From NCBI GenBank assembly GCA_947494975.1, contig CANLXA010000004.1:715001-779000 (forward strand): a stretch of 64,000 nt of DNA. The letters run 5' to 3'. The notes below the pieces were generated by a model. That model ran no database searches and was not told the origin of the DNA. It saw only the letters and a list, made by a program, of their open reading frames with translations. Position 1 is the first letter of the stretch, and every line of letters starts with the position of its first letter. This DNA is from an uncultured Roseicyclus sp. (GTDB taxonomy: Bacteria > Pseudomonadota > Alphaproteobacteria > Rhodobacterales > Rhodobacteraceae). The translations under genes were made by a program, and so were the position numbers. This document shows, piece by piece, positions 42,657 to 60,692 of the stretch.

Positions 42657-42832
42657 CAGTCAGGACCATCAAGGCCGTCGGCTCATCAGATCGATGGGCG
42701 CGGTTGGGGGCCGTAGAGCAGAGATGGTTTCAAGAGCATTCCAATGATCTGAGACGGCGCGAAGTGGGTTCGGTTCAAAGTGCGTTTGCTCCCGGGGCTG
42801 GACTGTCGCGTGGGCTTCGTTACCAAGGGCGT

Positions 42833-44038: not shown

Positions 44039-44057
44039 CGATAGAGAAGGACACGCC

Positions 44058-45100: not shown

Positions 45101-46363
45101 TTAGTTGCGGCGATCCCGGCGCAGCTTGCCGTCCAGCATGACCAATCGCACCGTCGTGGCGGAGTTCACAAAGACCGACAAGTCGCTGAGCGGGTCGCCC
45201 TCTACCATGATGAGGTCGGCCAGCGCGCCTGGCGTGATCTGCCCAAGCTCGCCTGCACGCTGCACGATCTCGGCGTTGATTGATGTTGCCGAGCGCAGGA
45301 CATCTACGGGGCGCTGCACCTGCCCGCGCAAAAGCAGCTCGCGCCCTTGGGTCTGAAGAAAAATATCCCCATGCAGATCACAGCCCAGGCCCAGTTTAAC
45401 CCCGGCCGTCGCACAGGCCTCGATCGCGTATAGCGTTCGCTTGTTGACGTCCCGCACCTTGTCCGTTGCAGAGGCCGGAAGCCCGAGCGCTTCGGCGTTT
45501 TCGGCAATCAACTCGCCCGCCGACAGCGTGGGCACAACGTAAGCGCCTGCCTCAGCGATGAAGGCGGCTGTCTCAGGCTCAATCAGGCTGCCGTGTTCGA
45601 TCGTCCGAACGCCCAATTCCAGGCACCGCCGCGCGCCTGCGTCAGTATGGCAATGGGCCATGACGTAGGATCCGCGCCGCGCCGCTTCTTCGACCGCGAC
45701 GAGGATTTCTGCGTCGGTGAAATGCGGCATCTCAAGCGGTGCAAGCTCGGTCGAAACACCGCCTGACACGAAGATCTTGATCTGGGTTGCCCCTTGCCGA
45801 AATCGTTGTCGCACGGCTTTGCGCATCTCGTGAGGGCCGTCCACGGCTTCGCAGATGACGCCGCTGTATTCCCCACATCCGCAGAGGTCCGACTCGCCGC
45901 GCCGCCGCATATCGCCATGCCCGCCGGTTTGCGTGAGCGCTTTGCCGGGATAGAAAAATCGCGGGCCATCGATCAGCCCGGCATCGAGCGATTGCGCCAG
46001 CCCGATATCGCCCCCGCCCGCATCGCGGATCGTGGTATAGCCCCGGTCCAACGCTCCGGTCAAAAGCCGCATGGCATGGGAGGCGAGCAGCGCGGGATGC
46101 ATGCGATCGGTGCCATAGAAATCGTAGCTTGGCGTATTCGCGTGGTAGTGCGCATCAATCAAGCCAGGCATCAGGAAGAGGCCATCGCAATCAATTCTGT
46201 GCGCCTCACCGGTATATGTCACATCGGCGCCCGCTTCGCGGATGCGCGTTCCCTCAACCACAACGGAGGCGTTTTCCACGGCCTCGTCAGACACACCATC
46301 CCAAAGTCGCGCGTTGTGAAAGAGAGTGACGCCGGTTTCCCCCGTATCACTGACCGTATTCAT
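45101..46363 (-). CDS. Metal-dependent amidohydrolase (Xaa-Pro/prolidase-like)
   Basis: A 420-residue member of the amidohydrolase superfamily. The H-x-H metal pair is His72 and His74 in MPGLIDAHYHANTPSY. Further ligands lie in YVMAHCHTDAGARRCLELG, IEHGSLIEPETAAF and GLGCDLHGDIF, and the C-terminal GQITPGALADLIMVEGDPL is typical. No lysine-bridge motif is seen clearly. Relatives cleave Xaa-Pro dipeptides, imidazolonepropionate or acylated amino acids. It is the tenth and last gene of the racemase-dpp-hyu operon and overlaps the M20 gene (ATGA), so it should act on a product of that pathway. Confidence 0.85.
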   Translation of the reverse strand: MNTVSDTGETGVTLFHNARLWDGVSDEAVENASVVVEGTRIREAGADVTYTGEAHRIDCDGLFLMPGLIDAHYHANTPSYDFYGTDRMHPALLASHAMRLLTGALDRGYTTIRDAGGGDIGLAQSLDAGLIDGPRFFYPGKALTQTGGHGDMRRRGESDLCGCGEYSGVICEAVDGPHEMRKAVRQRFRQGATQIKIFVSGGVSTELAPLEMPHFTDAEILVAVEEAARRGSYVMAHCHTDAGARRCLELGVRTIEHGSLIEPETAAFIAEAGAYVVPTLSAGELIAENAEALGLPASATDKVRDVNKRTLYAIEACATAGVKLGLGCDLHGDIFLQTQGRELLLRGQVQRPVDVLRSATSINAEIVQRAGELGQITPGALADLIMVEGDPLSDLSVFVNSATTVRLVMLDGKLRRDRRN

Positions 46364-47748
46364 ACCGACATCCTTCCCAACCTGTCGAGTAGCGCTGCAC
46401 CAGTGCGAATTCCGTGGTGAAACAGGGAGATTTCCAGGTTTTCGTTCGGAGCGTGGTTAGCCTCGTCTGCGTTTGCATAGGGCGTGACGAAGGCTGGCAA
46501 CCCGAGCGTCTTGGTGAATGCGTAATCCGGCAGGCTCCCCCCCACGCTTGGGTAGAGATATGGTTCGACCCCGCGTGCCATCCGCACGGCATCGATAATT
46601 GCAGGCGCGAATGGACTGTCCAGCGGCGTGCGCGACGGCAGCATCCCTCCGCAGCCGATCACCTCCACCTCGTCCTCCGGGGCGTGCTTCGCCACATGGG
46701 CGCGGACGCAGTCGACTGCCTGTTCCGGGGTCATATCCGGGACAAGGCGGATGTCGCATTTCGCGACCGCTTCGGCGGGCAAAACGGTCTTCGTGCCCGG
46801 TCCGCCATAACCGCCATGGATGCCGTTGATCGTGAGCGTCGGGTGGAACATCACCCGGTCATGGAACGGCCTGTCGGCAGGCGCATCCAGTCGTCCAAGC
46901 CCCATGTCGTCGAGGTATCCGGGGATGTCGACCGGTAGCGCTGCAGCGGCGGCGTGTTCGGCATTGGTGGGCGGGCGCACCGGGTCGTACAAGCCGTCAA
47001 TGGTGATCCGCCCCTCCGCATCCTTCATGGTGCCCAGGAGATGCACCAGCGTCCAAAGCGCATTTGGCATCGTGCCGCCATGATTACCGGAATGGGCATC
47101 GGTCCGCCCAGTCTTCACGGACAGTTCAAACCCGGCCATCCCGCGCACACCAAACGTCACGATGGGTCGGCCCGAAGGATGCAGAGGTCCATCGGCCGTC
47201 ACCACCAGATCCGCGTTGAGCCGGTCTGCATGGGCCGCCACGAATTCCGCGATGCGGGGCGACCCGATTTCCTCTTCTCCTTCCAACAGGAAGATCACGT
47301 TGCATGGCAACATCCCCGTAACCTTCAGATGCGCCTCCAGCGCCAGAAGCTGCGCAAAATGCTGGCCCTTGTTATCGCCGATCCCGCGGGCATAGATCCG
47401 CCCGTCACGGATCGTCGGCTCGAAGGGCGGGCTGATCCAGGCCTCAAGCGGGTCCGGCGGTTGTACGTCGTAGTGCCCATAAAGCAGGACGGTCGGCTTG
47501 CCCGGCGCGTCATTGCGATGGCCTAACACCATCGGATGACCAGATGTCGGGACCGCCTCGGCCTCAAACCCCAGCCCTTCCAGATGATCGACCAGCATGG
47601 CCGCGACCTCGCGGATGCCGATGTCATGGGCGCTGATGGACGGATGTTTGACGTAGTCCATGACGCGGCGCAGATGGTCGTCACGATGATTGTCGATATG
47701 GGCAAACACGGCGGCCAGCGTATCTGTTATCTCGATGTCTTCGGTCAT
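46360..47748 (-). CDS. M20-family dipeptidase
   Basis: A 462-residue metallopeptidase. Metal and catalytic residues: His92 and Asp94 in LLYGHYDVQPPDPLEAW, Asp125 in RGIGDNKGQHFAQLLA, and the Glu158-Glu160 stretch in LLEGEEEIGSPRI. The YGHYDVQP and GDNKG blocks are typical of M20 dipeptidases of the carnosinase/PepV-like type. About residues 195-310 form the dimerisation lid. It overlaps HyuA (ATGA) and the amidohydrolase (ATGA). With an oligopeptide-type importer upstream, it probably hydrolyses imported dipeptides or a ring-opened product. Confidence 0.9.
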   Translation of the reverse strand: MTEDIEITDTLAAVFAHIDNHRDDHLRRVMDYVKHPSISAHDIGIREVAAMLVDHLEGLGFEAEAVPTSGHPMVLGHRNDAPGKPTVLLYGHYDVQPPDPLEAWISPPFEPTIRDGRIYARGIGDNKGQHFAQLLALEAHLKVTGMLPCNVIFLLEGEEEIGSPRIAEFVAAHADRLNADLVVTADGPLHPSGRPIVTFGVRGMAGFELSVKTGRTDAHSGNHGGTMPNALWTLVHLLGTMKDAEGRITIDGLYDPVRPPTNAEHAAAAALPVDIPGYLDDMGLGRLDAPADRPFHDRVMFHPTLTINGIHGGYGGPGTKTVLPAEAVAKCDIRLVPDMTPEQAVDCVRAHVAKHAPEDEVEVIGCGGMLPSRTPLDSPFAPAIIDAVRMARGVEPYLYPSVGGSLPDYAFTKTLGLPAFVTPYANADEANHAPNENLEISLFHHGIRTGAALLDRLGRMSV

Positions 47749-49802
47749 GGGTCCGCCTTGGTCAGAATGAGTGCGCCCGAGGGCTGGACGGTGCCGGACC
47801 AGCCGGGCGCGATCAGGGTTGTGGTGTCGAGTTGGCTCACAATCGCGGGGCCTTCGATGAGCGCACCGGCACCGAGCGTAGACCGATCGAACAGCGGCAC
47901 GTTTTCCCGGCCAGATGGCAAGGCGACCGGTACGTGGTCTACCGGTTGTGGCGGCGCGCCCGGTGTCAGTGCAGACGGGGCCGGGGTTTGCATGGCTGCG
48001 CGCGCCTCCACCCGCAAGGTCACCAACTCAATCGGGGCGTTCAACTCAAAGCCGTAAAGGGCACGATGAGCGGCGGCAAAGCCGGCCTCCAACGCCTCGG
48101 CGGTCTGGGCCCAAGGCACGGCCAGTTCATTGCCCTGACCGGCATAGCGCAGAAGCGCGACGCGATTGGTTTGCCGGTCGCCCTCGGCTACGCCCTCGAC
48201 GTCGAACCAAGTGGCTGCATCGGCCTCAAGCTCCAAGCAGAGCTGTTCGGCTTCCGCCATATCGGCGGTGCCAGCCCGCGGCCGCGCCCGGCTGAATTCG
48301 GACTTGAGGTCAGCCGCCATAAGTCCATCGGCGCACAGAATGCCGGGGGCGGGCACGATCAACACTCGGCGTGTCCCGATCAGATCGGCGAGGGCGCATC
48401 CGTGGAGCGGCCCTGCGCCGCCGAACGGCAGCAGCGTGAAATCGCGCGGGTCGAACCCCCGCTCAACCGACACGACGCGCAGGGCGCCAACCATCTTGTT
48501 ATCCGCAATGGCAAGGATGCCGCGTGCGGCGTCTTCGACCGCTATGCCAAGCGGCTTCGCGACGCCGTCCTCCAGCGCGCGTCGCGCGGCGACAACGTCA
48601 AGCGCCATGTCGCCGCCCAAAAGCCGTGCGGGCAGGTGCCCCAGCACCACGTGAGCGTCCGTCACAGTGGCCTCGGACCCTCCGCGCCCATAAGCTGCGG
48701 GTCCTGGCGTGGCCCCGGCGCTTTCCGGCCCGACGGTCAACGCCCCGTCAGCGACTCGCGCGATGGATCCGCCGCCCGCCCCGATTGTCACCATATCGAC
48801 CATCGGCAGCGGCAGGGGCCAATCGCCCACCTGGCCTTGCTGGGTCAGCCCGATCTCACCGCCCGCGATGAGGCAGATATCAGCGCTTGTCCCGCCGATA
48901 TCGACGGTCAGGATGTCGTCGACCCCACAGGCCGCCGCTGCAGACCTTGCTCCAACAACGCCAGCCGCGGGCCCCGACAGAGCCGTCAGCGCCGGTGCGG
49001 AACGGATCTTGCCCGCGCCCGCAACCCCCCCATTTGATTGCATCAAAAGAAGCGGCGCGGGGACGCCTTCGGCGGCGAGTTTCTCCTCGATCCGCGCCAC
49101 ATAATGCGTGACGCCTGGCATCACGACAGCGTTCAGGACTGAGGCTAGGGTCCGTTCGTATTCCCGCACGACCGGCAAAACGTCCGATGATGCGGTGATC
49201 GCAATACCGGGGAGGGTGGCGCGCAGGATCTCGGCCACACGACGTTCATGATCTGGATTGGCGAAGGCGTGGAGCAAGCAAATGGCCACGGAATCTACGT
49301 CCATTTCGCGCAGGGCGTCAGCAGCAGTTGCTACGCTATCTTCGTCTAGGGCCTTGGCCACCGTGCCTCCGGGCAGAATACGTTCCGTTACCTCGACGAT
49401 GCGTGAGGCGGGCACCGGGCGCTCCGGCTTGATCCAGTTGTAGAGGTTGGCCGCACGCGGAATGTCCTGTCGTCCGATCCCAAGTACATGGCGAAAGCCG
49501 CGGGTTGTGACCAAGGCCGCCCGTGCGCCCTTGCCTTCAAGGATCATGTTCGTGGCGACGGTTGTGCCGTGCAGAACCTGACGCAGGTCTCCGGGCGCTG
49601 CGCCCGCTGCATCCAGTGCCAACCGCAATCCGGTCAAAAACGCCTCGGACGGATCGTCGGGGCGGGACGGGGTCTTGGCCCGCCAGACTTGTCCGGTTGC
49701 CGTGTCCGCAAGGGCCACGTCGGTGAACGTGCCACCGATATCCACCGCAAGTGTCAGCGCCGCCGTCTGTGCGTGCGCGGTTTCTGCGCCGTCAAAGGAC
49801 AT
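47745..49802 (-). CDS. hyuA: Hydantoinase/oxoprolinase A subunit
   Basis: A 685-residue protein. The N-terminal LAVDIGGTFTDVALAD is the ASKHA-type ATP phosphate loop of the family, with HGTTVATNMILEGKGA, TVDIGGTSADICLI and LLPFGGAGPLHGCALAD further on. HyuA with HyuB forms an ATP-dependent enzyme that opens cyclic amides: 5-oxoproline, hydantoin or N-methylhydantoin; some relatives are acetone or acetophenone carboxylases. It is somewhat shorter than fused eukaryotic oxoprolinases, as expected for a split bacterial form. It overlaps HyuB by 11 bases. The ring substrate is not readable, though the racemase and carbamoylase neighbours favour a hydantoin. Confidence 0.93.
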   Translation of the reverse strand: MSFDGAETAHAQTAALTLAVDIGGTFTDVALADTATGQVWRAKTPSRPDDPSEAFLTGLRLALDAAGAAPGDLRQVLHGTTVATNMILEGKGARAALVTTRGFRHVLGIGRQDIPRAANLYNWIKPERPVPASRIVEVTERILPGGTVAKALDEDSVATAADALREMDVDSVAICLLHAFANPDHERRVAEILRATLPGIAITASSDVLPVVREYERTLASVLNAVVMPGVTHYVARIEEKLAAEGVPAPLLLMQSNGGVAGAGKIRSAPALTALSGPAAGVVGARSAAAACGVDDILTVDIGGTSADICLIAGGEIGLTQQGQVGDWPLPLPMVDMVTIGAGGGSIARVADGALTVGPESAGATPGPAAYGRGGSEATVTDAHVVLGHLPARLLGGDMALDVVAARRALEDGVAKPLGIAVEDAARGILAIADNKMVGALRVVSVERGFDPRDFTLLPFGGAGPLHGCALADLIGTRRVLIVPAPGILCADGLMAADLKSEFSRARPRAGTADMAEAEQLCLELEADAATWFDVEGVAEGDRQTNRVALLRYAGQGNELAVPWAQTAEALEAGFAAAHRALYGFELNAPIELVTLRVEARAAMQTPAPSALTPGAPPQPVDHVPVALPSGRENVPLFDRSTLGAGALIEGPAIVSQLDTTTLIAPGWSGTVQPSGALILTKADP

Positions 49803-51606
49803 CGAGATACTCCTTGCGGTGGAAGGGTTTGACCTCGGGCCGTGTGGCTCTCAACCGCGCGGTCTCCGCCTCATCCACGTACCGACCGGTCACAGCGACT
49901 CCGTATTCGCGCGCGGCCGCCTCGATGCTCACCAACCCGGCAAGCACATCTTCCAGAACCTTTGCAGGCGGGCGATCAAACGGGTGTCCGTAGCCGCCGC
50001 CGCCGCCTGTCTCGATGCGGACAACGTCGCCTTGCTTCAGCATGGTCCCGTCCGACAAGGGTGGCAGCACCTTCTCGTCCGGCGTACCGGGATTGATCAC
50101 GATCCGCCCGGGCGCGCCGGATTTGCCACCTTTGATGCCCCAAGGCGGGTTCTCAACCCCATCAATGCGGATGCCCAACATCGCGCTGTCGGCGAGGATC
50201 TCGTATTCGCGTAGTATCCCCGTGCCGCCGCGAAACGCGCCCGGTCCGCCGCTATCCATCACCATGCCGTAGGTCCGGAAGGACACTGGATAGCCAAGCT
50301 CGGTAAATTCAATCGGATAGTTTTCCTGCGCTACGAAGTAGACGGCGTCCATGCCGTCGGCAAAGGCGCGCGCGCCGTATCCGACCCCGATGCCATCCGC
50401 CAGCAGGAACGGGGTCGCACTCCCATCCTTTGCTGTGAAGCTGCCCCGGATCAGGGCGACGACATAGGCCGCCTGCGCCGCCGGTGCCTGCCCGCCAGCC
50501 GCATTCACAAGACCGTTCAGCGTCGCCAGCACCCGCATCATCGTCAGGCCGCGCATGCCCAACGGCGCGGGCCATCGTGGCTTCACCAGCGACCCTTCGC
50601 GCAGCCGCACCTCATCCAGCGCAAGAGGCCCGCCCGCGTTGCAAACCTGGCCCGGCTCCCCGCCCAGATAAAACAATCCCAGCGCCATGCCGGGGATGGA
50701 CCGGTTCATCAGGAGATTAACCGGCCCCGGCGCCTGATCGTCCGTCTCGGTTGCATCGAAGATGAACCGGTCTGTCCCGTCCGGACCCTTCTCACGGATG
50801 ATGGCAAAGCGCAGATGGAAGGGCCCGTTGCCATGGCCGTCGCTATCGATGGCGTCGGTGAAGCGATGCGTGCCGTAGTCGAACGTCTCTGCCAGCCTGC
50901 GCCGGACAAGGCGGCGCGTCCGGTCCAGAAGCTGCGCAAGCGCATCCTCTAGAACGGCCGTTCCGAACCGGTCCGTGGCCTCCGCCATGCGCTGCACGCC
51001 GAGCCGAACGCTGGCCATCAGCGCGCTCATATCCCCCTCGCTTTGTGCGGGGAACCGGGAGTTTCGGTGAAAGATCGCAAGCGCCGCATCGTTCACCACA
51101 CCGGCCTCGATCAGCTTTGTTGGGGGAATGATAATCCCCTCCTGCCAGATCTCGGTGGCGTCCGGGCTGATGGAGCCGGGGTGCATGCCGCCGATATCGG
51201 CAAAATGCGCCCAACTCATGACAAAGGCCACGCGGTGCCCCTTGTGAAACACTGGCGCCAACAGAACCTGATCGTTGGAATGGCTCACCGCGCCGTAGGA
51301 GCCATAGCAATCGTTGTACCAGTAGAGGTCTCCCTCCTGCATCGTCTCAATAGGGAAATGCTCGAACACCGGCGTGGTGATGTCGCCGAAAATGGGCACC
51401 ATTGACCCCACAGCCATCACGCCCTCGCGGTCGAATATCGCGGTGTAGAAGTCTTTCTTTTCGCGGATGAACGCGGATATCGCAGTACGTTCGATCAGCG
51501 CCTCCATCTCACTTTGTGCCGCCTGGATGGCGCCCTGAATAATTTCCAGCGTGATCGGATCGCAAATGGGCGCAGTGGTGATGTCGGGATCAGCGGCGTG
51601 GGTCAT
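49792..51606 (-). CDS. hyuB: Hydantoinase/oxoprolinase B subunit
   Basis: A 604-residue protein. DPITLEIIQGAIQAAQSEMEALIERTAISAFIREKKD is represented by its start at residues about 17-53, the standard HyuB N-terminus. Also seen are DCYGSYGAVSHSNDQVLLAPVF, HFADIGGMHPGS, and the C-terminal IETGGGGGYGHPFDRPP. The B subunit carries the metal and ring-binding part that works with the ATP-using A subunit. It lies 3 bases after the peptide transporter ATPase and overlaps HyuA by 11 bases, so transport and ring opening are one transcription unit. Confidence 0.93.
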   Translation of the reverse strand: MTHAADPDITTAPICDPITLEIIQGAIQAAQSEMEALIERTAISAFIREKKDFYTAIFDREGVMAVGSMVPIFGDITTPVFEHFPIETMQEGDLYWYNDCYGSYGAVSHSNDQVLLAPVFHKGHRVAFVMSWAHFADIGGMHPGSISPDATEIWQEGIIIPPTKLIEAGVVNDAALAIFHRNSRFPAQSEGDMSALMASVRLGVQRMAEATDRFGTAVLEDALAQLLDRTRRLVRRRLAETFDYGTHRFTDAIDSDGHGNGPFHLRFAIIREKGPDGTDRFIFDATETDDQAPGPVNLLMNRSIPGMALGLFYLGGEPGQVCNAGGPLALDEVRLREGSLVKPRWPAPLGMRGLTMMRVLATLNGLVNAAGGQAPAAQAAYVVALIRGSFTAKDGSATPFLLADGIGVGYGARAFADGMDAVYFVAQENYPIEFTELGYPVSFRTYGMVMDSGGPGAFRGGTGILREYEILADSAMLGIRIDGVENPPWGIKGGKSGAPGRIVINPGTPDEKVLPPLSDGTMLKQGDVVRIETGGGGGYGHPFDRPPAKVLEDVLAGLVSIEAAAREYGVAVTGRYVDEAETARLRATRPEVKPFHRKEYLDVL

Positions 51607-51609
51607 GGA

Positions 51610-52605
51610 TCACGTCTCCGGTGCATGGAGGTGGCAGTGGACGATGCGGTTCTGGATGCGCGTGGGACCGGGAGCTTCAACCGCGCAGCGGTCAAAGGCG
51701 CGCGGGCAGCGATCGCGGAACGTACAGCCCGACGGCGGGTTACGCGGGTCGGGGGCGCCGCGCCCGATGGGTAGCGGCTCATGGCTTTGATCCGGGTGCG
51801 GCACGGGCACGGCTGCGACGAGCGCCTGAGTATAGGGATGCAGCGGATTGGCCACGATGTCCTCGGTCGGGCCATCTTCGACGATCCGGCCGAGATACAT
51901 CACGATGGTCCGTTCGCAGACATAGCGCACCAGTGCCAGGTCATGGCTGATGTAGATCGCGGTGATCCCCGTCTTTGCGCGCACGTCGCGGAAGACATTC
52001 AACACGCCAGCGCGGACCGACACGTCGAGCATCGAGACAGGCTCATCCGCAACCACGAATTCCGGCTCAAGGATCAAAGCCCGTGCCATGACGATGCGCT
52101 GAAGCTGGCCGCCCGAAAGCTGGTGGGGATAGCGATCCATGAATTGCGTCGCGTCGCCGAGTTTCACCAGCGCCATGGCGCGTAGGATCCGATCCTCATG
52201 CTCAGCTTTGGGAATCCGTGCATTTTCCAGCGGTTCGGCAAGAACGTCGCGGATCGTGAAGCGCGGGTTCAGCGCCTCAAACGGGTTCTGAAAGATCAGT
52301 TGGACACGGCTACGAAAACGTTTCAGGGCATCTCCGCTCAACGCGCTGATGTCCTCTCCGTCAAATTCCACCCGGCCACCGGTCGCCTTGTCGAGCCTGA
52401 CGAGCATCCGGCCAGTGGACGTCTTGCCACAGCCGCTTTCGCCCAGAAGGCCCACGCTTTCGCCCCGGTGGAGTTCGAAGGTGACGCCGTCGACGGCTTT
52501 GACCACGGTGGAGCGGCCTTGCAGTTGCGCCAAAATCCCACCGACGGGGAAGTGCAGCTCAGCCGCCTCCAGTTTGATGAGGGGCGGATCCTGGGTATCC
52601 CTCAT
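51610..52605 (-). CDS. Peptide/nickel-type ABC transporter ATP-binding protein (DppF/OppF-like)
   Basis: A 331-residue ATPase read from ATG 52605, which overlaps the previous stop (ATGA). Walker A is GLLGESGCGKTSTGRM, the signature is LSGGQLQRIVMARAL, Walker B is EFVVADEPVSMLD, and ISHDLALVRYVCE holds the switch histidine. The C-terminal oligopeptide extension has CTFRDRCPRAFDRCAVEAP with the cysteine cluster that often binds an iron-sulfur cluster in this group. It pairs with the DppD-like ATPase to power uptake by the permeases further upstream in the operon. Confidence 0.94.
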   Translation of the reverse strand: MRDTQDPPLIKLEAAELHFPVGGILAQLQGRSTVVKAVDGVTFELHRGESVGLLGESGCGKTSTGRMLVRLDKATGGRVEFDGEDISALSGDALKRFRSRVQLIFQNPFEALNPRFTIRDVLAEPLENARIPKAEHEDRILRAMALVKLGDATQFMDRYPHQLSGGQLQRIVMARALILEPEFVVADEPVSMLDVSVRAGVLNVFRDVRAKTGITAIYISHDLALVRYVCERTIVMYLGRIVEDGPTEDIVANPLHPYTQALVAAVPVPHPDQSHEPLPIGRGAPDPRNPPSGCTFRDRCPRAFDRCAVEAPGPTRIQNRIVHCHLHAPET

Positions 52606-53618
52606 GCCGGAATCTCCCAGGTCTCTGAGGCTACTGCGCGCGCTCTCAATGCCTCTGCCTCGGCGATCCGGTGACATGCGGCGAGGTGGTCGCCCTCGTA
52701 AGGCAGCAGCTCCGGTGCGTCCGTCCGGCAGCGTGCTTCTGCGAAGGGGCAGCGGGGGGCGAAGCGGCATCCGGCAGGCGGATTGGCGAGGTCTGGCGGC
52801 GACCCCTCAATGGGTGTCAGTTCCCCGGCCGCACCCGCCAGATCGGGGAAGGCGTTGCGCAAGCCCATTGTATAGGGATGGGCGGGCGCGGTCAGCGTCG
52901 CAGCCATCGGGCCGGTTTCGACCACGCGGCCCGCATACATCACGACAACGCGGTCGCAGACATAGGCCACCACCGAAATATCATGGGTCACAAGGATGAC
53001 GGAGATCCCCAGCCGTTCCTTCAACTCGCGCAGCTGGTCGAGGATCTGCCGCTGCACGATCACGTCGAGTGCGGTCACGGGTTCATCGGCGATGATCAGC
53101 TTCGGATCCAGCGCCAGCGCCAGCGCAATGGCCACGCGTTGCCGCATCCCGCCGGAAAACTGGTGCGGATAGTCGCCAAGGCGGTTGGTCTCGATCCCCA
53201 CCCATTCAAACAGCTCCTCGGACCGCTTCCGTGCCGCCGCGCGCGCCATACCTCCCCGGCGCGTCAGCACCTCGGCCAGTTGGGAGCCCACCGTATAGAC
53301 TGGATCCAGCGAATTCATGGCCGATTGCGGAATGAAGGCGATCTCGCGCCAGCGCAGCCCGTTCATCGCCCGTTCCGACAGGGCCACGATGTCTTGTCCG
53401 CAGAACACCGCCTCGCCGCCCGCGATCCGCGCGTTCGCCGCCAGAACCCGCGTCAGGGATCGTGCGAGAGTGGTCTTGCCGCAGCCGCTTTCGCCCACCA
53501 AACCCACGATGCTGCCGGGTTGCACATCGAAGGTCGCCCCCTCCACGGCAATCGTGTCGTGGGCGCCCACCTTGTAGGCGATGGACAGGTCTTTAAGGGA
53601 CAGAAGCGGCTCTGTCAT
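52602..53618 (-). CDS. Peptide/nickel-type ABC transporter ATP-binding protein (DppD/OppD-like)
   Basis: A 338-residue ATPase. Walker A is GLVGESGCGKTTLARS, the signature is FSGGMRQRVAIALALA, Walker B is LIIADEPVTALD, and VTHDISVVAYVCDRV carries the switch histidine. The C-terminal extension has CRFAPRCPFAEARCRTDAPE, the four-cysteine cluster region of oligopeptide ATPases. It overlaps both neighbours by 4 bases. It acts at the inner membrane with the DppF-like protein as the nucleotide-binding pair of one importer. Confidence 0.94.
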   Translation of the reverse strand: MTEPLLSLKDLSIAYKVGAHDTIAVEGATFDVQPGSIVGLVGESGCGKTTLARSLTRVLAANARIAGGEAVFCGQDIVALSERAMNGLRWREIAFIPQSAMNSLDPVYTVGSQLAEVLTRRGGMARAAARKRSEELFEWVGIETNRLGDYPHQFSGGMRQRVAIALALALDPKLIIADEPVTALDVIVQRQILDQLRELKERLGISVILVTHDISVVAYVCDRVVVMYAGRVVETGPMAATLTAPAHPYTMGLRNAFPDLAGAAGELTPIEGSPPDLANPPAGCRFAPRCPFAEARCRTDAPELLPYEGDHLAACHRIAEAEALRARAVASETWEIPA

Positions 53619-54529
53619 CGGTCGAGCTTCGGGAACAGGATCTGCTCATACCCGCGGGAGATGAAGAACCCGGCGGAGACGATCAGGATGATGAGAAAGC
53701 CTGGCGGCACGAACCAGTAATAGGAGCCTTTGGAGAGCGCCTGTGAGGCAAAAGCGTCTTGCAACATGTACCCCCAGCTGATGGAGTCCGGATCTCCGAA
53801 GCCGAGAAAACTGATCGACGCTTCCGTCAGGATGGCCCACCCGATAGCGATGGAGCCATAGAGGAAGGACAGCGGTAGCACATTAGGCGCGATGTGGCGC
53901 AGGATGATTTTCAGGTCGGATGACCCTGAGACGCGCGCCGCTTCGACATAGACCCGGTTGCGCAAGGTGAGCGTCTGGCTTCGGATCACCCGCCCCGTAT
54001 CGCGCCATAGCACCAGCGCCATGGCGATCACGACGTTCCAGATCGACGGCTCCAAAAAGGCGGCAAGCACGATGACGAAAGGCAGGAACGGAATGCCGAA
54101 CGCAACGTCCGCCAGCCGCATCAGGACCGTGTCAACCCAGCCGCCGAAGTACCCGGCGACGATGCCAACGATGGAGCCGATCAGCGCAACCATGAAAGCC
54201 GCCGTCAGCCCGATCAACAAGGCAGAGCGCGCGCCCCAGACGATTTGCGAGAAGATATCGCGGCCAAGTGTGGTTGTGCCGAGAATGTACCCCTCCGTCC
54301 CTGGTGTCAGGTCAGCGGCGAGCGCGAATTCCGAGGTGAACAGGATCTCATTGGGGTCATGGGTTGCGATGTACGGTGCGAAAACCGCCATGAAGATGAA
54401 GAACAGATAGATGCCGAGGCCGATAACCGCGAGCGGATCGTGCAGCGGCAGGCGGATCGACCCCATCATGCGGCGAAGGCGCGTAAATCTGCCCGGTGGC
54501 CGGACCTTGGTGGTTACGGCGTCACTCAC
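53615..54529 (-). CDS. Peptide-type ABC transporter permease (DppC/OppC-like)
   Basis: A 304-residue inner-membrane protein. A basic N-terminus leads to a first membrane helix (LAVIGLGIYLFFIFMAVFAP), then a periplasmic segment (TPGTEGYILGTTTLGRDIFSQ, matching the GTDxLGRD block of OppC proteins) and further helices. The EAA loop is EAARVSGSSDLKIILRHIAP. The stop overlaps the ATPase start (ATGA) and the start overlaps the DppB-like gene by 8 bases. It forms the channel with DppB-like permease. Confidence 0.93.
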   Translation of the reverse strand: MSDAVTTKVRPPGRFTRLRRMMGSIRLPLHDPLAVIGLGIYLFFIFMAVFAPYIATHDPNEILFTSEFALAADLTPGTEGYILGTTTLGRDIFSQIVWGARSALLIGLTAAFMVALIGSIVGIVAGYFGGWVDTVLMRLADVAFGIPFLPFVIVLAAFLEPSIWNVVIAMALVLWRDTGRVIRSQTLTLRNRVYVEAARVSGSSDLKIILRHIAPNVLPLSFLYGSIAIGWAILTEASISFLGFGDPDSISWGYMLQDAFASQALSKGSYYWFVPPGFLIILIVSAGFFISRGYEQILFPKLDR

Positions 54530-55499
54530 GGGTCACCCGGGGATCAAGAGCGGCATAGAGCAGGTCTGCGACGAGGTTCATCAGGATCACGACTACGGCG
54601 ATCATCAAGAACGCGCCCTGCGCCAGCGGGTAGTCTGCGGTAGAGACGGCGCGCACCAACTCGCGACCGAGGCCGGGCCAGGAGAACACCGTTTCCACGA
54701 CCACGTTGCCCTGAATTTGGTAGCCAACCGCGATGGCAAAGGATGTCATCACAGGCAAGAGTGCGTTGCGTGCAGCGTGCCGGATCACGACCGAAAATGT
54801 CGACAGGCCCTTGATCCGCGCCATGGTCACGAAATCCTCGCGCATGACGTCCATCATATTGGAGCGCATGAGCAACAGCGGCAGACCCTGGCTGTAGATC
54901 GCCAGTGTCAGGACTGGCAATGTCATGTGCCACCAGAAATCCGCTGAGGTATAGAGCGCCCACAAGGTATCATATTCGGCGCCCGGTGGCCGTGTGCCGC
55001 CAGCGGGGAACCACCCCATGCCGAAGCTGAACACCGCAAGCAACAGCATGCCGAGCCAGAATTCAGGCATCGCGCGCGTCGTTAGGACCAGCGGCACACC
55101 GACCTGTTCCACGACGGAGCCGCGCTTCCATGCGAGGTAGGCACCGGCCAGCACGCCGAAAACGTAAGCCACGATAAGGGAGGTAAAGGTCAGGATCAGG
55201 GTGTTTGGCAGAAGCGCCAGCACCCGTTCGGCGACAGGTTGGCGGTAGAAGAAACTCTCGCCCAGATCGCCCTGCATCAGATTGCCGAGATAGATCAGAT
55301 ATTGCCGCCAAAGCGGCTGATCGAGGCCAAAGCGGGCCATCAATGCAGCCTGCTGCTCGGGCGTGAAGTTCGGGTCGATGTAGGCCGCCAGCGGGCTACC
55401 TGGCATCAACCGGAACATGAAGAACAGGATGGTGATCACCGCCAGTAACACGAACGCTGTCTGCAACAAGCGTGCGCCAATGACGGTGATCGCCTTCAC
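54522..55499 (-). CDS. Peptide-type ABC transporter permease (DppB/OppB-like)
   Basis: A 325-residue inner-membrane protein. The first membrane helix is TAFVLLAVITILFFMFRLMPGSP, directly followed by the periplasmic segment that defines DppB proteins (LGLDQPLWRQYLIYLGNLMQGDLGESFF in part). The EAA-like loop is TMARIKGLSTFSVVIRHAAR, and the C-terminal FSWPGLGRELVRAV is a family motif. It starts 34 bases after the binding-protein stop and overlaps the next permease by 8 bases. Confidence 0.93.
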   Translation of the reverse strand: MKAITVIGARLLQTAFVLLAVITILFFMFRLMPGSPLAAYIDPNFTPEQQAALMARFGLDQPLWRQYLIYLGNLMQGDLGESFFYRQPVAERVLALLPNTLILTFTSLIVAYVFGVLAGAYLAWKRGSVVEQVGVPLVLTTRAMPEFWLGMLLLAVFSFGMGWFPAGGTRPPGAEYDTLWALYTSADFWWHMTLPVLTLAIYSQGLPLLLMRSNMMDVMREDFVTMARIKGLSTFSVVIRHAARNALLPVMTSFAIAVGYQIQGNVVVETVFSWPGLGRELVRAVSTADYPLAQGAFLMIAVVVILMNLVADLLYAALDPRVTRE

Positions 55500-55533
55500 T
55501 CAACCAGCCCCTTTTTGTCCGATTCCGTCAGGC

Positions 55534-57183
55534 TCATTCGCCCAATGTCTCGGAAACGCCTTCGGGGTAGTGCAACCGGCCGTCGACCACCTCATAGCCT
55601 GCATCTGCTAGCATCTGCTGGGCCAGTTCGATCCCGGCTTCCATGCCTTCGACCGTGGCCTCATTGTGCCAGAAGCCAAGCGCCGGAGAGACGACCGAAT
55701 TCGACGGCACGGCGAACCCGCGGAAGGCGGCACCGACGATCAGCCGGCGATCAACCGAGGCCGACAATGCGCGACGGAAGGCCGGGTCGTTGAAGGGCGG
55801 CCGACGGTGGTTGAAGGCGACATAGCGAAAGCCGATGTCGACGGTCGAGACCGCGGTCAGATTGGGATCCTCTTCGGCTGCAGCCACCACTACGGTCGGA
55901 TCACCGGGGAAATCCGACAGGAAGTTGATTTCGCCCGAGCGGAGCATGCCAAGTGACGCTTCGACATTCGGCACAATCCGCAGGATCCAGCGATCAGCAG
56001 CGGGCGCGGCCCAATGCTCGGCATTGGCTTCCAGCACGACCTCCTCGTTCAGGGTCCAGCTTCCAAAGCGGTATGGACCGGACCCAATCGGCACCTCTTC
56101 CTGATAGGATTCCGCGTTGGTCTCCAGCGTCAATTGCTCGGCGATTACCGGCTCCCAGATATGCATCGGGATGAGGTTGATCTTCGACAGGCTCGCGGTG
56201 AGGAACGGCGCCGACGGCTCGGTCAGCGAGAAGGTGATGTCCATGCCGTCGATGGTGATGTCGGCAATGCTCCCGACGAAGGGGCCATACATGGGCGCCT
56301 CACCCGATCCGGCGGCCTCAAACGAGAACGCGACATCTTCAGGCGTCACAGGCATGCCGTCATGCCACATCATCCCCTCGCGGAGTGTGACCCTGATCGT
56401 GGTGTCATCGATCCATTCATAGCTTTCCGCCGCCCAGGGTTGCGGCAGACCATCGGGCCCGATCCGCATCAGGCGGTCATACACCAGTTCAGTGATCCAG
56501 CTATCGGTTCCGCCGGAAATATATAGGGGATTGATCGCCGTCACGTTGTCCGACGAGTTGAGGATGATGTCAGTGACATCGCCGAGCGGCTCCATCTGGA
56601 GATAGCTCCAGGTGTTGCGGATACCGATACCGGACTGGTCCACCACGGTGTCGGGATTCCAGACAGACGTATTGAACGCGTAGGTCGATTGCGGGTGCGC
56701 AAGCATCATGTTGGGCTGATCTTCGGCCAGCATCGCCTGTGCCGCCCGGACAATCTCGCGTCGCTCGTCGGGATCGAGCGTCACGCGCTGCTGTTCGACC
56801 AGCGCGTCATAGTCGGGGTTGTTGTAGCCGATGAAGTTGAAGCCCTGCTCGGCCGTCGTGGAATGGAACAGGTTATAGACGATCTCGTCGGGGTCCGAGC
56901 GTTCGGGGCGGCCGACCATCTGCCAGGCCGTCGTGTCCCAATCGTCGCGGCTGAACCAGATCGCCTGGATCATCTGCTCCCAGGGCATCACCTCGACATT
57001 CACATCCAGACCGAGCCGGCGCCATTCCTGCGCAATCAGCTGGGTAAACTGGAACTCGGCAGGCTGCGCGGCCTGCGGCCTTGTGACGATGTTGATGGTC
57101 CGGATTTCTTCAGCAATTGCAGGTGTCAGCACGGTAGCCGACAGCATGGCGGCAAGTACCGTTGGTCTAAATGGCAGTGTCAT
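55534..57183 (-). CDS. Peptide/nickel-type ABC transporter substrate-binding protein
   Basis: A 549-residue periplasmic protein of solute-binding family 5. ATG 57183 is chosen because AGGAG lies 7 bases upstream; a TTG two codons earlier is less likely. Residues 1-24 are a signal peptide ending PAIA-EE. The mature chain shows HSTTAEQGFNFIGYNNPDYDALV, then WITELVYDRLMRIGPDGLPQPW and VTLREGMMWHDGMPVTPEDV, the classic family block. Notably, the first 160 mature residues look like the C-terminal lobe of such proteins placed before the usual N-terminal block, and the chain ends soon after VVDGRLHYPEG. The order of lobes may thus be permuted. Ligand unknown. Confidence 0.88.
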   Translation of the reverse strand: MTLPFRPTVLAAMLSATVLTPAIAEEIRTINIVTRPQAAQPAEFQFTQLIAQEWRRLGLDVNVEVMPWEQMIQAIWFSRDDWDTTAWQMVGRPERSDPDEIVYNLFHSTTAEQGFNFIGYNNPDYDALVEQQRVTLDPDERREIVRAAQAMLAEDQPNMMLAHPQSTYAFNTSVWNPDTVVDQSGIGIRNTWSYLQMEPLGDVTDIILNSSDNVTAINPLYISGGTDSWITELVYDRLMRIGPDGLPQPWAAESYEWIDDTTIRVTLREGMMWHDGMPVTPEDVAFSFEAAGSGEAPMYGPFVGSIADITIDGMDITFSLTEPSAPFLTASLSKINLIPMHIWEPVIAEQLTLETNAESYQEEVPIGSGPYRFGSWTLNEEVVLEANAEHWAAPAADRWILRIVPNVEASLGMLRSGEINFLSDFPGDPTVVVAAAEEDPNLTAVSTVDIGFRYVAFNHRRPPFNDPAFRRALSASVDRRLIVGAAFRGFAVPSNSVVSPALGFWHNEATVEGMEAGIELAQQMLADAGYEVVDGRLHYPEGVSETLGE

Positions 57184-57232
57184 TATCAATCTCCTGTTGG
57201 CGTCTCATGGACGACGTTGGATGTGCGCGGCT

Positions 57233-57988
57233 TCAGGCAACGCGCATGTCAGAGGCGGTTTTGCCCGCCTTCATCTTCGCTGGCGTGGGCCATGCCTTTT
57301 TGGAATGGGCCAATCCCATGGAAACCAGCATCTCTGCGTGTTTCACGGCTGCGCGGCCCGCATTCACGACCGGCACGCCGACTTCCGCGCCGATCTCATC
57401 GCCCATGTCTAGGAAAGACATTGTCATGCAGCCAAACAGCAGGGCGTCGGCGCGGTCCTCATCGACACAGGCGCGGGCGACCTCGATCAGACGTGCCTTG
57501 GTGGCGTCCGGATCGTTCATCAACTCAAGCACCGGGATATTCGTGGGGCGGACCGAGGCCAACTTCGCGCGGACGCCCGCGTGGACCGCCAGCATCTCCT
57601 GGCCCGCGATCAAGCTGTCGAAAATCGTCAGCACGCTGAACTTGTGTCCCAGCCCCGCCGCCAGAAGCATCGCGCTTTCGCAAGGGCCGATCACGGGCAT
57701 AGACACCAGCTCGCGCGCGGCCTCAAGCCCCGGGTCGCCGAAGCATCCGATGATCGCGGCATCATAGCCCTGTGTCTCGCATTCCATGATCAGATCAAGC
57801 GTTGGCGGGATGGCCAGCATCTCCTCGTAGGCGGACTCGATAGACGCTGGTCCGGACGGCACATCAATGACGGAAACGTCGGTGCCATCGAAAGCCCAGC
57901 CATTCATCAGCGCTTCGCGGCGCTGCATCTCGGTACGTCCCATCGGTCCCTTAGACATCGGACCTGGCACCACATACGCAATTTTCAT
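57233..57988 (-). CDS. Asp/Glu/hydantoin racemase family protein
   Basis: A 251-residue cofactor-free racemase-type enzyme read from ATG 57988. The two catalytic cysteines expected in the family are Cys82 in AAIIGCFGDPGLEAAREL and Cys187 in ALLFGCMTMSFLDMG, placed in the two pseudo-symmetric halves. VIGPCESAMLLAAGLGHKFSVLT is also typical of hydantoin racemases. It converts the enantiomers of a 5-substituted hydantoin or a related alpha-carbon acid. It is the first gene of the ten-gene operon, 22 bases after the palindrome at 58011-58029, which links racemisation to transport and HyuAB ring opening. Confidence 0.88.
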   Translation of the reverse strand: MKIAYVVPGPMSKGPMGRTEMQRREALMNGWAFDGTDVSVIDVPSGPASIESAYEEMLAIPPTLDLIMECETQGYDAAIIGCFGDPGLEAARELVSMPVIGPCESAMLLAAGLGHKFSVLTIFDSLIAGQEMLAVHAGVRAKLASVRPTNIPVLELMNDPDATKARLIEVARACVDEDRADALLFGCMTMSFLDMGDEIGAEVGVPVVNAGRAAVKHAEMLVSMGLAHSKKAWPTPAKMKAGKTASDMRVA

Positions 57989-58098: not shown

Positions 58099-58872
58099 AT
58101 GTCCGAACCCCGAGATTACACCATCGCAGCCGTTGACCGTGCCCTGTTGGTATTGGAGGCCCTGGCAGGCCAGCCAAGGCAGGGTGTCACGGAGCTTGCC
58201 TCGCGTTTGGGACTGACCAAGACGATCGTCTTCCGGCTGTTGTCGACCCTGGAGGGCAGGGGGTTCGTTGTTCGCGAGGGCGACAAGGCCATCTATTCCC
58301 TCGGTTACCGGATGGGCGTTTTGGGTGAACAGGCGGGCGCGCAGAATACGCTGCTGGCTGCCGCGCGCGTGGTGATGGAGCGCCTTCGCGAGGATACGAC
58401 GGAGACCATCAACCTGATCCTGCGTGAAGGGAACCGATCCCTCGTCCTGGCGACTCTTCCAGGCCATCATGCCATGAGAATTTACGCAAATGCAGGGCGT
58501 TATGGCCCGCTGCACGCCGGCGGTGGCTCCATGCTGCTGCTGGCCCATGCCCCGCAGGATGTGCGCGAAAGTGTCTTGGCAGAGCCATTGGAATCGTTCA
58601 CCGCCGCCACTGCGACCGATCCCGATGACCTGCGCACGCGCCTCGACATGATCCGGGCGGATGGCTTCCATATCGCGATCAACGACCTTGACGAGGGCGC
58701 GTTTTCCATCGCTGCGCCGATCCGCGGTGCTTCCCACGAAGTGATCGCCGCCCTGTCGGTAGCGGGTGCTATGGCGCGATACGACGAACCCCGTCGACGC
58801 CGCTATCTTGGGCTGGTCGAAGGGGCCGCTGCTGAAATCAGTGGCAAACTTGGTCTGGCGACCGCCGCCTGA
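58099..58872 (+). CDS. IclR-family transcriptional regulator of the amide/peptide island
   Basis: A 257-residue protein. Residues about 8-75 form the winged helix (AVDRALLVLEALAGQPRQGV, LASRLGLTKTIVFRLLSTLE, then the wing with VREGDKAIYSLG). The rest is the IclR effector domain (LREDTTETINLILREGNRSL, GRYGPLHAGGGSMLLLAHAP, FSIAAPIRGASHEVIAALSV). It faces the ten-gene operon and precedes the M28 gene, and both have the same 19-base palindrome in front of them. It is most likely a repressor relieved by a substrate or intermediate. Confidence 0.92.
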   Translation: MSEPRDYTIAAVDRALLVLEALAGQPRQGVTELASRLGLTKTIVFRLLSTLEGRGFVVREGDKAIYSLGYRMGVLGEQAGAQNTLLAAARVVMERLREDTTETINLILREGNRSLVLATLPGHHAMRIYANAGRYGPLHAGGGSMLLLAHAPQDVRESVLAEPLESFTAATATDPDDLRTRLDMIRADGFHIAINDLDEGAFSIAAPIRGASHEVIAALSVAGAMARYDEPRRRRYLGLVEGAAAEISGKLGLATAA

Positions 58873-58936
58873 GCGCGGCGTCATCCCGCGCTTGTCGAAT
58901 CGCACCCTGACTGTCACGCTTCATTTGATAAAACTC

Positions 58937-58955
58937 TGTTTTGATGAATGAAACA
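58937..58955. promoter_or_regulatory. Second IclR-type operator, before the M28 gene
   Basis: TGTTTT-GATGAAT-GAAACA matches the palindrome at 58011-58029 in length, arm sequence and 7-base spacing with one arm mismatch. It lies inside a larger dyad (outer TTCATT and AATGAA, 58920-58952) and ends at the ribosome site AAAGGG (58955-58960). Binding here would block transcription or initiation of the M28 gene. Confidence 0.65.
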
Positions 58956-58967
58956 AAGGGGCGCGCG

Positions 58968-60692
58968 ATGATGACTTCCGAAACCGCAATTCTCGACCAG
59001 GTGACGATGGACGAGCCCTGGGGGCTGGTGAAAAGCTTCGCTACTTTCAAACGCGAACACCCTGACGATGTGAATCGCGGAATGGACGAGGTTGTTGAGC
59101 GCCTGTCGCGCCATGGCGTCCCTGCGACGGTCCATAACCCGTCGCTTTATCTGAGCTTGCCCGGTGCCGCTCGGGTAGAAGCATCCGGCGTGACCTACCG
59201 CGCCAAGCCGCCGGCTTATGCCACGGATGCTCGTGGCGGAGTGACAGCCCCCCTTGTCTACCTCGGGGCCAATGCGGTGGACGATATCGACGACATGTTC
59301 GATCTTAAGATTGATGGTGCGGCGGGCATGGCGGGCCTTGCGAAAGGCGCTATCGTTGTCTCCGAGGGGTTCGCCAGCCCGGTCATGGTGCGCCAGTTTG
59401 AAGATCTGGGGGCCGTCGGCGTCATTGCAATCAACCCCGGCATCGACATCCACTGGGGCATCTGCACGACGATCTGGGGTGTTCCCGACCTTGACGATTT
59501 ACCGAGAAAGCCCGGCATCCCCGCCGTCGCGGTAAATAAGCCCGATGGAGAGGCACTGATTGCGCTGGCCAAGGCAGGCGGTGAGGGTACGGTGTTCACC
59601 GAGATGGAGGAGGGGTGGTTCGACAGCAAACTGGTTGAGGTCGTGATCCCCGGCACGGAGGAACCTGACAAATACGTTCTCCTGCATGGCCACCTCGACA
59701 GTTGGGATGTCGGCGTGGGTGACAATGCCGTTGGCGATGCGTGTATGCTGGAAATCGCCCGCGTTCTTTGGGCGAACCGCGACAAGCTGCGCCGTTCGGT
59801 CAAGATCTGCTGGTGGCCCGGCCACTCCACAGGACGCTACGCCGGGTCGACGTGGTACGCCGACGCGTTCGCGCTCGACCTCGACGAAAATTGTGTCGCG
59901 CAAGTGAATTGTGACAGTCCCGGCTGCCGTTGGGCGACCGAGTTCCTGAACCTGTCGCGCATGTCCGAAACGGACGATCTCATCAGTGACGTCATCGAGG
60001 AGATCGCGGGCAAAACCGCTGAGGGGGAGCGACCGCATCGGGCAGGCGACTATTCCTTTAACAACATCGGCATCTCTGGCTACTTCATGCTGTCCTCGAC
60101 GATGCCCACCGTGTTGCGGGAAGAGAAGGGGTATTACACGGTTGGCGGTTGCGGCGCCAATATCGCGTGGCATACCGAGAACGACACGCTTGAGATTGCC
60201 GACAAGGACATTCTGGAACGCGACATCAAGGTGTACCTTTTGGCCATTCTACGTACGGCTAATTCTGGGATCCTACCTTTCGATTGGCGTGCGACAGCGC
60301 GAGAGTTTCAAGCGACGATTACGGAGTATCAGGCAGCCGCAGGGGAGCGTTTTGACCTTACACCCTCCGCGGAGGCGGCGCAGCATCTGCTGGAGACGCT
60401 GGACGCGTTTTACGTTGCTGCCGAGGTTGGAACGGTCTCGGAAGACAAGGCGAATACAATTATTCAAGACCTTGCCCGTATTCTCGTCCCGATCAATTTC
60501 TGTCGTGGGCCGCGCTTTCGCCACGACCCTGCGGCCACGATCCCGCCCTTGCCCACAATCCACACGGCGACGGAACTTGACGAGCACGATGACACGCTTG
60601 GCTTTGCGCAAAACCAACTGGTGCGTGGTCAAAACCGGCTGGTCGCGGCACTCAGGCAGGCCACGCGGCACATATCACTCGTCACCGCCTAA
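58968..60692 (+). CDS. M28-family peptidase-like protein with altered active site
   Basis: A 574-residue protein; ATG 58968 has AAAGGG 7 bases upstream. About residues 90-205 look like a protease-associated insert (GAIVVSEGFASPVMVRQFE, AVGVIAINPG). The M28 core starts about 236: His242 and Asp244 in VLLHGHLDSWDVG, bridging Asp252 in GDNAVGDA, Asp in VNCDSPG, and the last His in NIAWHTENDT. The catalytic Glu-Glu pair, normally before a G-L-x-G-S turn, is replaced by Gly-His286-Ser287 (WWPGHSTGRYAGSTWY). There is no signal peptide. It may be a changed-chemistry amidohydrolase or a non-catalytic relative. It overlaps the oxidoreductase gene by one base. Confidence 0.8.
   Translation: MMTSETAILDQVTMDEPWGLVKSFATFKREHPDDVNRGMDEVVERLSRHGVPATVHNPSLYLSLPGAARVEASGVTYRAKPPAYATDARGGVTAPLVYLGANAVDDIDDMFDLKIDGAAGMAGLAKGAIVVSEGFASPVMVRQFEDLGAVGVIAINPGIDIHWGICTTIWGVPDLDDLPRKPGIPAVAVNKPDGEALIALAKAGGEGTVFTEMEEGWFDSKLVEVVIPGTEEPDKYVLLHGHLDSWDVGVGDNAVGDACMLEIARVLWANRDKLRRSVKICWWPGHSTGRYAGSTWYADAFALDLDENCVAQVNCDSPGCRWATEFLNLSRMSETDDLISDVIEEIAGKTAEGERPHRAGDYSFNNIGISGYFMLSSTMPTVLREEKGYYTVGGCGANIAWHTENDTLEIADKDILERDIKVYLLAILRTANSGILPFDWRATAREFQATITEYQAAAGERFDLTPSAEAAQHLLETLDAFYVAAEVGTVSEDKANTIIQDLARILVPINFCRGPRFRHDPAATIPPLPTIHTATELDEHDDTLGFAQNQLVRGQNRLVAALRQATRHISLVTA

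Follow-up and report, generated by a model that had tools for sequence, protein, structure and literature searches.

A conserved, probably catabolic locus of an uncultured Roseicyclus encodes a predicted circularly permuted binding protein of the Dpp/Opp class

The window analyzed here, a stretch of 64,000 nucleotides from an uncultured Roseicyclus sp., carries at 45101-57988 an operon that combines a racemase, an ATP-binding cassette (ABC) importer, a HyuA/HyuB pair and two hydrolases, which raises the question of what such a locus takes up and what, if anything, is unusual about it. We read the operon as a conserved module for catabolism, ordinary in its parts, whose unusual point is the conserved circular permutation of the binding protein. 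On its sequence, the protein encoded at 55534-57183 is assigned to the SBP_bac_5 (Dpp/Opp) class of substrate-binding proteins (SBPs) as a naturally occurring circular permutant, in which the signal peptide is followed by the canonical C-terminal part and then by the canonical N-terminal part. The features of this gene are as follows.

55534..57183, minus strand: circularly permuted SBP_bac_5 substrate-binding protein, 549 aa (PF00496, reversed AppA match)
57112..57183, minus strand: signal peptide of about 24 residues (judged by eye)
56584..57111, minus strand: counterpart of the C-terminal third in canonical SBPs, residues ~25-200 (phmmer, half-models)
55537..56583, minus strand: counterpart of the N-terminal two thirds in canonical SBPs, residues 201-549 (phmmer, half-models)

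Membership in the SBP_bac_5 class was clear from the PF00496 match, which scored 215.6 bits against a curated cut-off of 32.4 and fell into two stretches, and the canonical order with the N-terminal part first was not found. In a phmmer search of solved structures, residues 207-537 matched AppA (1xoc) 23-349 and residues 50-171 matched AppA 378-494 (numbered on the 551-aa open reading frame (ORF), the protein being counted as 549 aa), and the solved SBP 5u4o gave the same reversed match. Compared with canonical members of the class (AppA 1xoc, DppA 1dpp, and 5u4o), the window protein is alike in sequence over both parts and in having a signal peptide and adjoining Dpp/Opp permeases and ATPases, whereas the order of the parts is reversed and the new termini lie between AppA ~349 and 378. 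Furthermore, separate models of both SBP parts (half-models, built partly from the permuted proteins counted here) found the permuted order in 118 ORFs (101 distinct), the opposite, canonical order in 44 ORFs (43 distinct), and the larger part alone in 15. The host genome (4.55 Mb, 9 contigs) holds 14 other SBP matches, comprising nine canonical proteins, four with the larger part alone, and a second permutant described below. Ten family genomes lacked a close match, and the 38 matches found in them were all limited to query residues 206-546.

The same searches bear on another possibility, in which the first 200 residues would be an unrelated domain and the rest of the chain a truncated SBP fused to it. 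The low sequence identity of both parts to canonical proteins and the weak tree support from this part alone (39%) would fit such a fusion, but the part matched the C-terminal stretch of AppA and 5u4o by phmmer and of canonical paralogues by the half-models, the structure prediction gave a single confident compact model, and the total length is that of canonical SBPs. The unrelated domain was rejected on these matches, and we regard this explanation as very improbable. An assembly or frameshift artefact was discounted on the strength of an uninterrupted ORF in the permuted order at 80 of 80 loci (the scan is given below). The genome search counted one stop inside 3 of the 12 family matches, and a frame check of those three found none within the aligned stretch; in the class sample, one stop was counted inside the match of 1 of 12 genomes. 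The match of locus L128 held a stop and was excluded from alignment A3.

The AlphaFold model of the binding protein as one chain had a predicted local distance difference test score (pLDDT) of 91.3 and a predicted template modelling (pTM) score of 0.87, with low pLDDT at residues 1-20. In this model a stretch of about eight residues, between helix 191-196 and strand 205-210, links the canonical ends. The N- and C-termini of the canonical SBP fold lie close together; because these ends adjoin and are joined here by such a short link, the permuted fold would keep its two-lobed cleft, with the new termini opening elsewhere, and the clam-shell mechanism would presumably be unchanged. Foldseek aligned 349-394 columns at a query TM of 0.40-0.50 (best 50 of 161 matches, E 0.001 or better), and coverage and TM this low are expected for a permutant because Foldseek aligns in chain order.

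Of 294 sampled family genomes other than its own, 12 carried a relative of the permuted protein, near full length and at E 1e-60 or better. All 12 could be aligned end to end, each with a hydrophobic N-terminus like the leader of the window protein before the same part. In the class sample the permutant occurred in 12 of 289 genomes, own included, with one match a fragment at a contig end. Among GTDB contigs, the scan gave 106 confirmed relatives, of which 80 were kept, and the permuted order held in all 80. The nearest named proteins come from uncultured Roseicyclus (98%) and Rhodophyticola porphyridii (97%). Most GTDB relatives are labelled Alphaproteobacteria, with some from Trueperaceae, Thermomicrobia/Chloroflexia, Armatimonadetes, Bacillota, and ANGP1; these non-alphaproteobacterial relatives are mostly metagenome bins whose taxon labels may be wrong. 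All 20 matching plasmid records covered 91-100% of the query, and six of them are haloarchaeal (three Haladaptatus, Halalkalicoccus, Natrononativus, and Halobaculum; 29-32% identity). The permuted order was checked and confirmed in eight plasmid loci. The viral contig scan gave only one partial relative, which was canonical.

For phylogenetic analysis, the two parts were aligned separately and then concatenated, using 36 of the 118 permuted ORFs (picked for spread), the 43 distinct canonical ORFs, and 5 of 8 rows with the larger part alone. In the concatenated tree, one branch with one change split the 36 permuted rows from the 48 canonical rows, with a support of 98 in the Shimodaira-Hasegawa-like approximate likelihood ratio test (SH-aLRT). 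This value was 99 when three rows of the second type of permutant were added, 89 for the larger part alone, and 39 for the smaller part alone. These trees indicate that the window-type permutants form one clade apart from canonical SBPs, which we propose as a putative new subgroup.

A second permuted SBP_bac_5 protein with another cut site was observed in the same genome at G000:C3:605852-607468 (L016, L133, L175:7850-9469). It has 539 aa, and its leader is followed by a part matching DppA 269-379, with a part matching the N-terminal stretch of several SBPs at the end. The half-models placed the end of its N-terminal part before the start, and one relative gave a weak match to the C-terminal part between these two pieces. 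By the DppA domain limits, the cut would fall close to the point where the chain first crosses from one lobe to the other. The second protein is encoded in an SBP-permease-permease-ATPase-ATPase-DHDPS cluster. Its relatives occurred in two further genomes of a family sample of 198 (81% and 51%) and in one further genome of a class sample of 240 (52%), and none was found in plasmids at E 1e-30. A common origin of both kinds of permutant was not rejected by the approximately unbiased (AU) test (p 0.472).

One natural SBP permutation was found in the open-licence literature, in another SBP class: Tp0684 (MglB-2) of Treponema pallidum, a circularly permuted glucose-binding protein that the available portion of its report places in the authors' cluster Bc (PMC4990184). 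According to the same portion, Tp0684 is likewise a naturally permuted binding protein of an ABC importer that is conserved in relatives, but it is a type I/cluster B sugar SBP with another cut, and the window protein belongs to PF00496 (PMC4990184). The window protein matched PF00496 only and is no member of cluster Bc. No permuted member of the SBP_bac_5 class was found in the open-licence literature, and a report elsewhere is possible.

The remaining nine genes of the operon were each placed and named by Pfam.

57233..57988, minus strand: Asp/Glu/hydantoin racemase family protein (PF01177, 123.4 bits)
54522..55499, minus strand: ABC permease, DppB/OppB type (PF00528, PF19300)
53615..54529, minus strand: ABC permease, DppC/OppC type (PF00528, PF12911)
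52602..53618, minus strand: ABC ATPase, OppD/DppD type (PF00005, PF08352)
51610..52605, minus strand: ABC ATPase, OppF/DppF type, probably starting at ATG 52605 (PF00005, PF08352, start codons)
49792..51606, minus strand: HyuB, hydantoinase B/oxoprolinase family (PF02538, 422.8 bits)
47745..49802, minus strand: HyuA, ATP-binding hydantoinase/oxoprolinase family (PF01968, PF05378)
46360..47748, minus strand: M20 metallopeptidase, dipeptidase type (PF01546)
45101..46363, minus strand: amidohydrolase, prolidase/carboxypeptidase-like (PF01979)

The original prediction had described ten tightly spaced minus-strand genes at 45101-57988, with a dipeptide importer, and this description held up: each family it named has a Pfam match (Asp_Glu_race, SBP_bac_5, BPD_transp_1 twice, ABC_tran with oligo_HPY twice, Hydantoinase_B, Hydant_A_N with Hydantoinase_A, Peptidase_M20, and Amidohydro_1), and the Pfam families of the SBP, permeases, and ATPases agree with an importer of the dipeptide/oligopeptide class. 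The amidohydrolase ORF has its stop end at position 45101, and 57988 is the first ATG of the racemase ORF, which opens mechanically at TTG 58003. Between the mechanical ORFs the gaps are 43, 34, -8, -4, -169, 3, -11, -4, and -4 bases, so that none exceeds 43 and most ends overlap; the overlap of 169 shrinks to 4 bases if the second ATPase starts at ATG 52605. In a simple scan, the stretch held 4 promoter-like sites against 2.7 in shuffles and 11 terminator-like sites against 8.7. Since these sites occur at about the frequency of the shuffles, we infer a probable co-transcription of the ten genes from spacing and synteny only.

The gene order was then compared across loci, with neighbours counted at the 54 of the 80 loci that have full flanks (9 kb upstream, 9.9 kb downstream). 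The block recurred beyond what chance would give: the order SBP, permease, permease, ATPase, ATPase on one strand was present in 54 of 54, and HyuB with HyuA (60% or more identity) lay downstream in 38, with HyuB anywhere in 40. An M20 gene was counted in 29 and an amidohydrolase in 4, both counts being lowered by flanks that end near these genes. The racemase was upstream in 19. In addition, an M28 peptidase was divergent in 50 and an IclR regulator in 37. A quinone reductase lay upstream and divergent at 12 loci, and downstream at 22. In the window these three genes form a divergent unit at 58099-61675 that belongs to the locus of the operon.

58099..58872, plus strand: IclR-family regulator, divergent (PF01614, PF09339)
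58941..60692, plus strand: M28 peptidase, lacking a signal peptide as judged by eye (PF04389)
60692..61675, plus strand: NAD(P)H quinone oxidoreductase-like protein, PIG3 family kin (Pfam ADH_N/ADH_zinc_N)

The IclR gene opposes a mechanical minus-strand ORF without a Pfam match. The M28 peptidase has weak matches to glutamate carboxypeptidases and to the M28 peptidase 3iib, and the quinone oxidoreductase-like protein scored 131 bits with TIGR02824, below the cut-off of 296.8. Both this unit and the permutation of the binding protein had been overlooked by the original prediction. After the transporter, M28 is the steadiest partner, outside the coordinates considered before. Because M28 is present at 50 loci and HyuB (60% identity) is absent from 14, the ligand is probably peptide-like and ring opening by HyuAB probably an optional branch. 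The earlier placing of ring opening at the core of the pathway is not supported by these counts. The cyclic dipeptide, pyroglutamyl peptide, and hydantoin derivative of the original prediction are all candidate ligands on these data.

The enzymes of the operon were examined for what they say about the ligand. The nearest solved structures of the racemase are the allantoin racemase 5lfd and the putative hydantoin racemase 3qvj, and it keeps both cysteines of the Asp/Glu/hydantoin racemase fold, in GCFGDPG and FGCMTM; an identity as arylmalonate decarboxylase was rejected (NCBIfam 20.4 against a cut-off of 225 bits). HyuA carries the motifs DIGGTFTD, DIGGT, and GATPGP, corresponding to the ATP motifs of CapA, and HyuB has HSND at 109-112 and H134 where CapB has H99, D102, and H124, the available portion of the caprolactamase report giving these ATP motifs and the H-x-x-D plus second H metal pattern (PMC8453981). 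Thus the pair has the motifs of the ATP-dependent hydantoinase/oxoprolinase/lactamase family, with the metal Asp (~D52) placed by motif alone, and the racemase and HyuAB families named by the original prediction are borne out. The likeness to caprolactamase CapAB (6yra) extends to these motifs as that portion describes them (PMC8453981); the window pair differs in scoring under the NCBIfam cut-offs of 1000 (HyuA 488.8 and HyuB 224.9 bits), on which a caprolactamase identity was rejected, and in a HyuB without vicinal cysteines. Among solved relatives of HyuA and HyuB, N-methylhydantoinase (7hk5) was best, together with caprolactamase. Three more HyuA/HyuB pairs were observed on contig C2 of the same genome (L033, L034, L035), with 35-38% identity for HyuA and 29-30% for HyuB to the window pair. 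Another pair lies by a permuted SBP at loci L038, L041, L042, L092, L093, and L102, with a distant M20 of 28-29% identity.

The hyuABCE cluster of Pseudomonas sp. NS671 also brings together a racemase, HyuA, HyuB, and an M20 hydrolase, and this combination of four therefore has a precedent; the window differs from it in having an importer, a dipeptidase-type M20, an amidohydrolase, and the divergent M28, IclR, and quinone reductase genes. Hydantoin salvage of this kind would have the importer take up 5-substituted hydantoins, the racemase interconvert their enantiomers, HyuAB produce N-carbamoyl amino acids, and an M20 carbamoylase finish. The kinship of the racemase to the solved allantoin and hydantoin racemases, its two cysteines, and the match of HyuA and HyuB to 7hk5 agree with this scheme. 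A plus-strand pair at 42617-45047, made up of an M20 amidase and a gene of the nitrilase superfamily, converges on the operon and stops 53 bases short of its end, and the amidase (42617-44038) passed the NCBIfam hydantoinase/carbamoylase model with 302.4 against 204 bits, which also speaks for salvage. However, no carbamoylase-type M20 was found within the operon, whose own M20 fits dipeptidase models best (PRK08201 at 396 bits, below the cut-off of 441; best 25 of 40 matches), with Sso-CP2 carboxypeptidase and cytosolic non-specific dipeptidase as nearest solved structures. Moreover, no relative of the carbamoylase or nitrilase gene was found in the flanks of the 80 loci or in 14 further stretches, the flanks of the nearest relatives ending before that place, and the M28 peptidase is the steadier partner. 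We consider hydantoin salvage unlikely.

The joint presence in one operon of a Dpp-type importer, a dipeptidase-type M20, and an ATP-dependent cyclic-amide hydrolase also raises the use of cyclic dipeptides, in which HyuAB with ATP would open diketopiperazines, the racemase epimerise the alpha carbon, and M20 and M28 cleave the dipeptide. A 2013 proposal, in the available portion of its text, has diketopiperazines opened by then-unknown enzymes and then cut by dipeptidases (PMC3852281). On the other side, no characterised family member with diketopiperazine-opening activity was found in the literature searched, nor any paper that brings diketopiperazine, oxoprolinase, and hydantoinase together, and some of the importer loci are without HyuB; cyclic dipeptides are to our mind a rather improbable substrate as well. 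The amidohydrolase has 3mkv and 3feq as nearest solved structures and reached 222 bits with the NCBIfam Xaa-Pro dipeptidase model, below its cut-off of 500.

Taken together, we lean slightly towards the view that the locus encodes the inducible catabolism of a peptide-like compound, served by the permuted Dpp/Opp-class binding protein. The soluble periplasmic protein would catch the ligand and pass it to the two permeases, driven by the two ATPases. Inside the cell, the racemase would reset a stereocentre; HyuA would phosphorylate and HyuB open a cyclic amide where present; and M20, M28, and the amidohydrolase would break the opened, peptide-like product down into amino acids. The probable sensor of the compound is IclR. 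The ligand and the order of reactions are putative in this scheme, and the gene content, gene order, conservation, and permutation are observed.

Distant permutants adjoin other enzymes. One lies beside creatininase-family proteins and M20; another beside an amidohydrolase, threonine dehydratase, and Rid; one beside dipeptide epimerases, D-aminoacylases, and M81; another beside M81, the creatininase family, and a mandelate racemase relative; and one beside a gamma-glutamylcyclotransferase-family gene. On haloarchaeal plasmids (L129, L132, L169, L170), importers with permuted SBPs were observed with creatininase-family, M81, RidA, dipeptide epimerase, and D-aminoacylase genes. The epimerases recurring beside distant permutants, at a handful of loci, suggest ligands with D- or epimerisable residues. 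A broader and rather doubtful proposal is that Dpp/Opp SBPs were permuted at least twice at different cuts, that the window clade, spanning several bacterial phyla and haloarchaea, may comprise importers for epimerised or D-residue peptide-like compounds, and that chain ends on the other lobe might alter docking or hinge motion.

Several points weigh against the favoured module or its generality. Among the best 50 of the 161 Foldseek matches there was no solved permutant structure, and the fold is a prediction. The spread is patchy: only the own genome carried the permutant in a phylum sample of 299, and two congeners lack it. Of the 54 full-flank loci, 14 lack HyuB (60% identity) and 35 lack the racemase, and the module is therefore without fixed chemistry; distant permutants have other enzymes as neighbours. 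The proposed scheme leaves the quinone reductase without a role, and its peptide-like ligand and inducible expression are predictions.

The permutants are labelled just 'ABC transporter substrate-binding protein' in eight plasmid records, which is a warning for annotation. For metabolism, the steady link to M28 speaks for a peptide-like ligand, with a short list of candidate compounds. Natural permutation of an importer SBP has been described for one group, which binds sugars (PMC4990184). Another instance, in the SBP class with the largest ligands and kept across distant lineages, would provide many natural sequences with which to probe the role of chain order in folding, export, docking, and hinge motion.

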